Assembly: GCA_019912545.1 (NCBI GenBank)
Contig: JAIOIK010000130.1
Coordinates: 1 to 54,403 of the forward strand
Source of the DNA: Ignavibacteria bacterium
GTDB taxonomy: Bacteria > Bacteroidota > Ignavibacteria > Tepidaquicellales > OLB5
DNA: 54,403 bases
Direction: 5' to 3'
Part shown: in pieces, positions 20,113 through 20,693 of the stretch
How positions within the stretch are numbered: position 1 is the first letter of the stretch
Layout of the letters: each line of letters opens with the position of its first letter
The notes under the pieces: generated by a model
Database searches by the model: none
Told to the model about the DNA's origin: nothing
What the model saw: the letters and a program-made list of their open reading frames with translations, nothing else
Made by a program: the position numbers and the translations under genes

Positions 20113-20185
20113 TAGCGGGGGAAGGATTTGAACCTCCGACCTTCGGGTTATGAGCCCGACGAGCTACCAGCTGCTCCACCCCGCG
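20113..20185 (-). tRNA. initiator tRNA-fMet (anticodon CAT)
   Basis: The 73-base tRNA folds with a 7-base acceptor arm, D arm GAGC/GCTC, anticodon arm TCGGG-CTCATAA-CCCGA, 5-base variable loop and T arm GGAGG-TTCAAAT-CCTTC. Three consecutive G-C pairs under the CAT loop and an unpaired first base (C1 opposite U72) are the marks of an initiator. No CCA is encoded (the next bases are CAA), so a nucleotidyltransferase must add it. The nearest features are a terminator downstream and two degenerate tRNA-like copies upstream on the same strand. Confidence 0.95.
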
Positions 20186-20264
20186 ATATTATAGGCAAAT
20201 ATACTCATATATTAAACCCGCTTCAAGTTATGAAATTATACCTAAAAATGGTTTTTAAAGAGAA

Positions 20265-20314
20265 CTTCGGGTTATGATCCGCCAGTTGGCAGATACCTGC
20301 TACTCCACTCTAAG
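20265..20314 (-). pseudogene. tRNA-fMet-like relic A (5' half, with inserted palindrome)
   Basis: Read on the minus strand, this segment keeps GTGGAG, a D-arm-like AGGTA and the anticodon-loop stretch CATAACCCGAAG of the initiator tRNA. The T arm and acceptor 3' strand are absent. Between D arm and anticodon it has a palindrome, CTGCCA...TGGCGG, not found in the tRNA. The same palindrome occurs in relic B. It cannot fold as a working tRNA. Confidence 0.6.
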
Positions 20315-20359
20315 TTACTATCTACAAATACACTCTTTTACTAATAATGATCCATGTTA

Positions 20360-20611
20360 TCAAATTATTGTCAAAACTTGTTTTCTAATAAATTCTCTTC
20401 CTTTGAAGCTCTTAAGCTCTTTCTCCCTTTGCATGGCCTCATTTTTTTCGGCAAACTCCTCTTTGTAAACAATTTCCCAAGGCCTAAACCTGATTGTCCA
20501 GCCCTTCTTAGAAAGTTCATTATGGGATAAAAATCTTTGTTCAAGATTTGATGTCATCCCAATATATATCTTGTCAAAATTTTTTGAGTATAATACGTAT
20601 ACAGTGTACAT
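20360..20611 (-). CDS. small GIY-YIG nuclease-domain protein
   Basis: This 83-residue protein is a single GIY-YIG domain. It has VYVLYS and IYIGMTSNLEQRFLSH for the two core strands with Arg and His following, and a late helix QREKELKSFKGREFI that supplies the metal-binding Glu. Free-standing domains of this size are often grouped with the UvrC-endonuclease/YhbQ family; their biological role is poorly known. It lies between two tRNA-like relics, and its ATG directly follows the T-run of a terminator. That arrangement suggests a selfish or tRNA-locus-associated element rather than a repair gene. Confidence 0.87.
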   Translation of the reverse strand: MYTVYVLYSKNFDKIYIGMTSNLEQRFLSHNELSKKGWTIRFRPWEIVYKEEFAEKNEAMQREKELKSFKGREFIRKQVLTII

Positions 20612-20634
20612 AAAAAAACCTGAAACTATTCAGG
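20612..20634 (-). terminator. terminator between relic B and the GIY-YIG gene
   Basis: On the minus strand CCTGAA and TTCAGG (20619-20634) form a 6-bp stem with a 4-base loop, followed by seven T. It parallels the tRNA-terminator arrangement at 20078-20185. Confidence 0.75.
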
Positions 20635-20642
20635 CATTAATT

Positions 20643-20693
20643 CTTCCGGTTATGATCCGCCAGTTGGCGGATACCAGCGGTTCTATACCGCGA
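20643..20693 (-). pseudogene. tRNA-fMet-like relic B (5' half, with inserted palindrome)
   Basis: On the minus strand it begins TCGCGG like the real tRNA, keeps GCTGGTA of the D arm and TCATAACC-GAAG of the anticodon arm, and then diverges. The perfect palindrome ATCCGCCA/TGGCGGAT occupies the D-arm to anticodon junction, as in relic A. The T arm is missing. Confidence 0.6.

Follow-up and report, generated by a model that had tools for sequence, protein, structure and literature searches.

The free-standing GIY-YIG enzyme SegB of T-even phages cuts within tRNA genes, and units composed of a tRNA and segB amplify in tandem; no isotype preference is reported for SegB (PMC13096335). The elements described here share with SegB both the position of a GIY-YIG gene beside tRNA genes and the occurrence of tandem tRNA-nuclease units. 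They differ in that SegB is phage-borne, larger, and has sequence beyond its catalytic domain, whereas the present elements are chromosomal, encode proteins of about 80–90 amino acids, and follow the anticodon. Copies of the tRNA broken by a palindrome are a feature here and go unmentioned for SegB in the available portion of that work (PMC13096335). The best sequence and fold matches are instead the UPF0213 or bacterial SLX1-like proteins (PDB 1zg2, 1ywl), which likewise have one GIY-YIG domain. A 2006 survey of the superfamily placed bacterial stand-alone GIY-YIG domains with SLX1 and treated them as mostly vertically inherited; the tRNA-gene neighbourhood seen here is not mentioned for such domains in the available part of that survey (PMC1564403).

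Like the genomic islands and prophages that integrate at tRNA genes, the present elements have an intact tRNA at one end and a fragment at the other, but they are without an integrase, measure about 0.3–0.4 kb, and are associated with 5′ as well as 3′ fragments. With REP/RAYT systems they share the co-occurrence, within a genome, of a nuclease gene with small palindromes; here, however, the nuclease is of the GIY-YIG type rather than an HUH Y1 transposase, and it is flanked by tRNA genes rather than by palindromes. No description of an arrangement of tRNA, GIY-YIG gene, and tRNA fragment was found in the open-access literature, and the family is annotated merely as hypothetical GIY-YIG protein.

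Such an arrangement is present in a 54,403-nucleotide stretch of DNA from an Ignavibacteria bacterium (the window). It is reasonably likely that this locus belongs to a widespread family of minimal selfish elements living in tRNA genes, whose insertion or amplification leaves one intact tRNA, each element consisting of one stand-alone SLX1/UPF0213-type GIY-YIG gene and a fragment of one particular tRNA gene. We infer both the cleavage and the movement of the element. A tRNA-targeting selfish unit had been proposed in the initial annotation of the window and is the best reading, backed by related genomes and by sites with and without the gene. If it is true, the element would be among the smallest known autonomous selfish elements, residing within essential tRNA genes across many phyla, and a lone 80-residue nuclease would be able to specialise on one tRNA anticodon across phyla. 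Many genomic tRNA fragments would thereby be explained, and the unexplained spread of short palindromes through these bacteria would gain a candidate enzyme.

The tRNA-fMet locus and its nuclease

The intact tRNA-fMet (anticodon CAU) occupies positions 20113–20185 and was called by both ARAGORN and Rfam (RF00005, 63.7 bits). It is followed by an intrinsic terminator at 20079–20101 (hairpin CCCGTCAGTTTGGCGGG and a T-run, read directly) and preceded by a promoter or leader at 20186–20250 (TAGGTATAATTTCATAACTTGAAG...TATATTTG), which recurs before the relic in three related genomes (G006, G010, and G012). Read in the sense of the tRNA, the locus runs from a first partial copy, relic B (20693–20643), through a terminator-like hairpin with a T-run (20634–20612, likewise read directly), the GIY-YIG gene (20611–20360), and a second partial copy, relic A (20314–20265), to the promoter, the intact tRNA-fMet, and its terminator, all on the minus strand. 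The hairpin and T-run between relic and GIY-YIG start codon are also found in G006. Before relic B lies a decayed copy of the tRNA leader, recognised by alignment (20694–20712, minus strand, ATTTGTTGATATTG). Two broken tRNA-fMet copies sharing a palindrome and lacking the T arm, a GIY-YIG gene between them, and terminators after both relic B and the real tRNA had been described initially, and alignment of the copies, the domain match given below, and the two hairpins with T-runs bear out each of these points.

Both relics, delimited by alignment (for relic B with the orthologues in G006, G010, and G012), correspond to the 5′ half of tRNA-fMet. They retain the anticodon and 3′ anticodon-stem sequence (TCATAACCCGAAG) as well as TCATAACC(C/G)GAAG, while GCTCGTCGGGC of the tRNA has been swapped for a TCCGCCAACTGGCGGA palindrome, with one mismatch in relic A. 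The palindrome, a feature without strand, is thus imperfect in relic A (ATCCGCCAGTTGGCAGAT, 20277–20294); that of relic B is perfect (ATCCGCCAGTTGGCGGAT, 20655–20672) and belongs to a dispersed type with 34 copies. Against tRNA-fMet relic A scores 15.5, and against the best non-cognate tRNA 10.5. The corresponding scores for relic B are 11.0 and 13.5, and by score relic B would not stand on its own as evidence of a tRNA copy. Judged from the alignments, it is certain that the fMet relic descends from a real tRNA copy, because the orthologous relic in G006 matches the tRNA and its promoter almost perfectly except for the palindrome swap (score 23.5, against 14.5 for non-cognate tRNA).

The 83-amino acid protein encoded between the relics is a lone GIY-YIG catalytic domain (PF01541, E=1.3e-17) in which Y5, Y16, G18, R26, and E63 are invariant across 20 sequences. 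By profile it is nearest to UPF0213/1zg2 (E=1.7e-13) and SLX1 (E=1.7e-7), and the same two, 1zg2 and SLX1, were the top Foldseek matches of its AlphaFold2 model (pLDDT 91.8); the window protein has an SLX1-type GIY-YIG fold without a RING domain. A match of the window gene to PF10544 fell just below the cut-off. The nuclease is under strong purifying selection, with dN/dS of 0.05–0.10 where dS was measurable. A phage origin was rejected, as phage matches were weak (29–46% identity) and nearly all in Rhizobium phages.

Compared with free-standing homing endonucleases, the locus has the GIY-YIG domain and no enclosing Rfam intron, and a separate DNA-binding region beyond the catalytic domain is absent from the 83-amino acid window protein. 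This lack of the DNA-binding domain of known homing endonucleases counts against the selfish-element reading, as does the continued presence of the presumed target in the adjacent intact tRNA. Anticodon loops of tRNAs can carry introns with homing nucleases, and these loci might be decayed group I introns of tRNA genes that have retained only the homing nuclease; the nuclease domain does match a group I intron endonuclease model, weakly and below the cut-off. Such an origin is exceedingly improbable, given that an Rfam intron search of the window and 20 loci gave no match, that no ribozyme core was found, and that a complete tRNA besides the fragment is not expected from an intron.

Related loci in the host genome and across bacteria

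The host genome (3.66 Mb, 38 tRNAs) has 12 GIY-YIG matches, ten in short genes and two in long proteins. Six of the ten short genes adjoin a tRNA (Ala, fMet, Asp, Gly-tcc, Ser-gga, and Pro-cgg), where the chance proximity within 300 bp expected from the tRNA number and genome size is about 0.7% per gene, and all six are accompanied by a palindrome-bearing partial copy of the same tRNA. In several relics of this genome the palindrome substitutes for the anticodon arm almost exactly, as in tRNA-Gly, where CAGCCTTCCAAGCTG has become TCCCGCAAGGCGGGA.

Searches of other genomes recovered the same association widely. Thirty relatives yielded 108 unique small GIY-YIG genes, 50 of them less than 300 bp from a tRNA and all 50 on the tRNA strand; 80 named loci of other genomes held 94 genes, 70 of which lay within 300 bp of a tRNA, 69 of these on the same strand; and an even draw across the phylum of the window (the Bacteroidota group) found the family in 36 of 61 genomes, some matches belonging to a sister clade, with 21 of the 29 further loci shown being tRNA-adjacent, all on the same strand, although most of the members from which the two profiles used (A1 and A2) were built are tRNA-adjacent, which favours the recovery of further such genes and makes these adjacency fractions upper estimates for GIY-YIG proteins generally. 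The collection scan used profile A2, the first profile, A1, being too diverse. The named loci carry about 19 phylum labels, and their hosts include Bacteroidota, Ignavibacteriota, Chlorobiota, Cloacimonadota, Nitrospirota, Elusimicrobiota, several Patescibacteria lineages, and others. Eudoraea adriatica DSM 19308, which is in culture and non-pathogenic, has an element at tRNA-Asp (L207). Most of the genomes compared are metagenome assemblies, some of them nearly complete; an assembly artefact was rejected, as the arrangement recurs in genomes of one to ten contigs (G009, G022, and G026). At four loci (L128, L132, L136, and L191) the gene begins 2–40 bp after the tRNA with no obvious terminator, so that the tRNA and nuclease probably have a joint transcript there.

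Relics on the far side of the gene accompany 94 of 115 genes, and their polarity is fixed. An upstream intact tRNA goes with a 3′ fragment of the same tRNA downstream of the gene, and a downstream intact tRNA with a 5′ fragment upstream of it; the 3′ end of the tRNA is reached by 52 of 58 downstream relics and the 5′ end by 32 of 36 upstream ones. The far-side region best matches the cognate tRNA, above every non-cognate tRNA, in 90 of the 115 genes, and homology beyond the tRNA itself is usually short. If a chromosomal tRNA recombined, by one crossover, with an element bearing a 5′ or 3′ tRNA fragment, a complete tRNA with a terminal fragment would be expected; tandem duplication of the tRNA-gene unit followed by decay would give a similar picture.

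Under the favoured reading of a selfish element, the nuclease would nick or cut the tRNA gene, probably at hairpin or cruciform structures near loops, and repair through the tRNA homology borne by the element (a donor, circular, or tandem copy) would place the gene within the tRNA or next to it. One crossover in the shared tRNA segment would leave one intact tRNA and one fragment, an element with a 5′ part giving a 5′ fragment upstream and one with a 3′ part giving a 3′ fragment downstream, and the carried segment would determine which tRNA is targeted. Dispersed palindromes would then disrupt the leftover copy and may guard against re-cutting or against recombining the element out, while loss of the nuclease gene would leave bare relics. 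Integration at a tRNA classically also leaves the tRNA intact with a fragment of it at the far end, as seen at these loci, and this would suit a GIY-YIG gene that is a passenger in the remnants of tyrosine-integrase elements attaching at tRNA genes, or is mobilised by them in trans. This passive carriage is very unlikely: there is no integrase or other site-specific recombinase between the two tRNA copies, where the GIY-YIG open reading frame is the sole gene, the 5′-fragment cases are as clear as the 3′ ones, and the nuclease clades track the anticodon.

The grouping of the nucleases into subclades tracks the anticodon of the adjacent tRNA, and does so across phyla. Mapped onto a tree of 183 proteins, this anticodon changes 54 times, as against a mean of 85 and a minimum of 79 in 300 shuffles. 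When the nearest neighbour was restricted to another phylum or family, which lessens the effect of shared descent, it had the same anticodon in 46 of 109 cases (5.6 expected). Groups for Asn, Asp, Pro-cgg, Leu-caa, Arg-acg, and fMet are visible in the tree, and the fMet group of the window is nested within an Asn group. The enzyme may be the source of this anticodon specificity, or the tRNA fragment may confer it simply by acting as a homology arm.

Occupied sites, empty sites, and tandem arrays

The tRNA-fMet site is empty, with promoter and tRNA only, in four relatives (G005, G002, G011, and G007); it holds one unit in G010 and two identical 366-bp units in G012. A tRNA-Gly site in the Thr-Gly-rpmG-Trp region is empty in G006, G005, G009, G004, and G011 and occupied in G010 and G000. 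In G010 this site reads native flank, relic 1, a 28-bp linker, intact tRNA-Gly, GIY-YIG gene, relic 2, and native flank, and the outer native flanks abut the relic ends in precisely the way seen at the empty site. A search within the genus with the flanks of the Ala locus matched only a dispersed repeat and gave no empty site.

Loss of the gene is also evident at the Gly site, where G002 has kept the relic and linker while the GIY-YIG gene is gone and the G000 copy is frameshifted. Gene loss accounts for at least some of the empty sites, and we infer the direction of gain and loss. In the host genome, relics without a GIY-YIG gene occur at seven more tRNAs (Leu-taa, Arg-tct, Met, Gln-ctg, Leu-tag, Ser-gct, and Leu-gag), and these are most simply remnants after gene loss. 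Palindrome-bearing relics free of the nuclease had been named in the initial annotation as a finding that would refute a selfish unit; they do exist, but loss explains them better, because the Gly relic and linker outlast the gene in G002 and the gene is broken in G000. At the fMet site, pS of the gene and of the neighbouring alaS is 0.42 and 0.51 in one pair of values and 0.18 and 0.32 in the other. Since this synonymous divergence roughly equals or is slightly lower than that of alaS, the fMet copy has been long resident rather than recently spreading, and has been lost in some lineages; that the gene diverges about as fast as alaS counts against the selfish-element reading.

Units also occur in arrays. 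On contig C34 of G082 (locus L355), a 364-bp unit made up of a tRNA-fMet 3′ relic, a terminator, and the GIY-YIG gene is repeated eightfold at 92% identity, and further tandem arrays were seen in G019, G026, and others. The tRNA at which the G082 array starts seems itself to lack its 5′ half. Together with the paired units of G012, these arrays favour local tandem amplification without insertion, in which a resident nuclease would cut the tRNA, the tRNA-gene unit would duplicate by unequal recombination, and surplus tRNAs would decay, with no movement between sites or genomes. SegB does likewise in phage T6 (PMC13096335), and divergence at the fMet site is near-vertical. Local amplification alone fails, however, on the presence of the same subclade at the same anticodon in different phyla, for which transfer is also needed, and on the finding that close relatives differ in whether a site is occupied or empty, native flanks abutting the relic ends; as a complete account it is unlikely. 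The decayed tandem array first put forward as an alternative to a selfish unit is therefore part of the truth, in that units amplify in tandem.

Palindromes and a sister clade

The palindrome type of the window, TCCGCC-N-GGCGGA, has 34 copies in the genome and 1 in a reversed control. It is found mostly in ordinary intergenic DNA and is some 300-fold denser in relics, a rough figure in view of the relic length used. Elsewhere, too, partial tRNA copies are usually interrupted by palindromes of the host: a tRNA-Arg relic of Flavobacterium is broken in the D loop by the palindrome CCTGCCTGCCGGCAGGCAGG, and similar breaks are present in relics of Eudoraea and Daviesbacteria. Taking the loci together, a palindrome is found no more than 4 bp from 41% of interior relic ends, as against 17% of random nearby positions. 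The palindrome had at first been taken as a signature of the element; both this and a role as the element's own end were rejected, as it is a dispersed genomic repeat that differs between hosts, the relics of each host bearing that host's own palindromes.

The relics could alternatively be decoys or antitoxin RNAs in an RNA-level system whose GIY-YIG protein acts on the tRNA or its precursor. Gene and tRNA lie on one strand, probably often in one transcript, and the G006 relic retains its promoter. Against this, no common RNA structure was seen among the relics, whose palindromes differ, some loci have lost their relics, and the nearest solved relatives of the protein are the SLX1 branched-DNA nucleases. 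A crude folding test of 15 5′-type loci likewise gave no effect, pairing probabilities being similar with the palindrome, without it, or with it shuffled, and a role of palindromes as insulators against relic-tRNA mispairing was not supported. Action at the RNA level is, on this evidence, highly improbable.

GIY-YIG genes located away from tRNAs form one clade in the tree, sister to the tRNA-linked members. In this clade (L004, L006, L008, L010, and 39 further loci), palindromes lie on both sides of the gene at 13 of 43 loci and in 1 of 39 control segments, and related sequence lies on both sides at 25 of 43 loci and in 1 of 39 control segments; the bracketing palindromes are dRS3-like, of the ATTCCCGCGAAAGCGGGAAT type. 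These paired palindromes and related flanks suggest a broader link between the nuclease and hairpin DNA. A tentative and rather doubtful extension is that hairpin or cruciform DNA is the substrate of the GIY-YIG proteins in both clades and that these constitute a new class of mobile element, for which tRNA genes, as natural hairpin clusters, would be home to one clade and paired palindromic repeats to its sister, the same activity spreading the small palindromes seen in tRNA relics and in the loops of hairpins. The wider family has archaeal members (L194 and L197, Hadarchaea), with no tRNA found nearby, at the base of the non-tRNA clade. In the window itself, a hairpin at 20857–20909 (acaaggggg...cccccttgt) has a loop enlarged by ~29 nt that include the palindrome TCCCGACTAACGGGA. 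Its orthologue in G006 (L057) is without these nucleotides, and for this reason short palindromes seem to enter hairpin loops.
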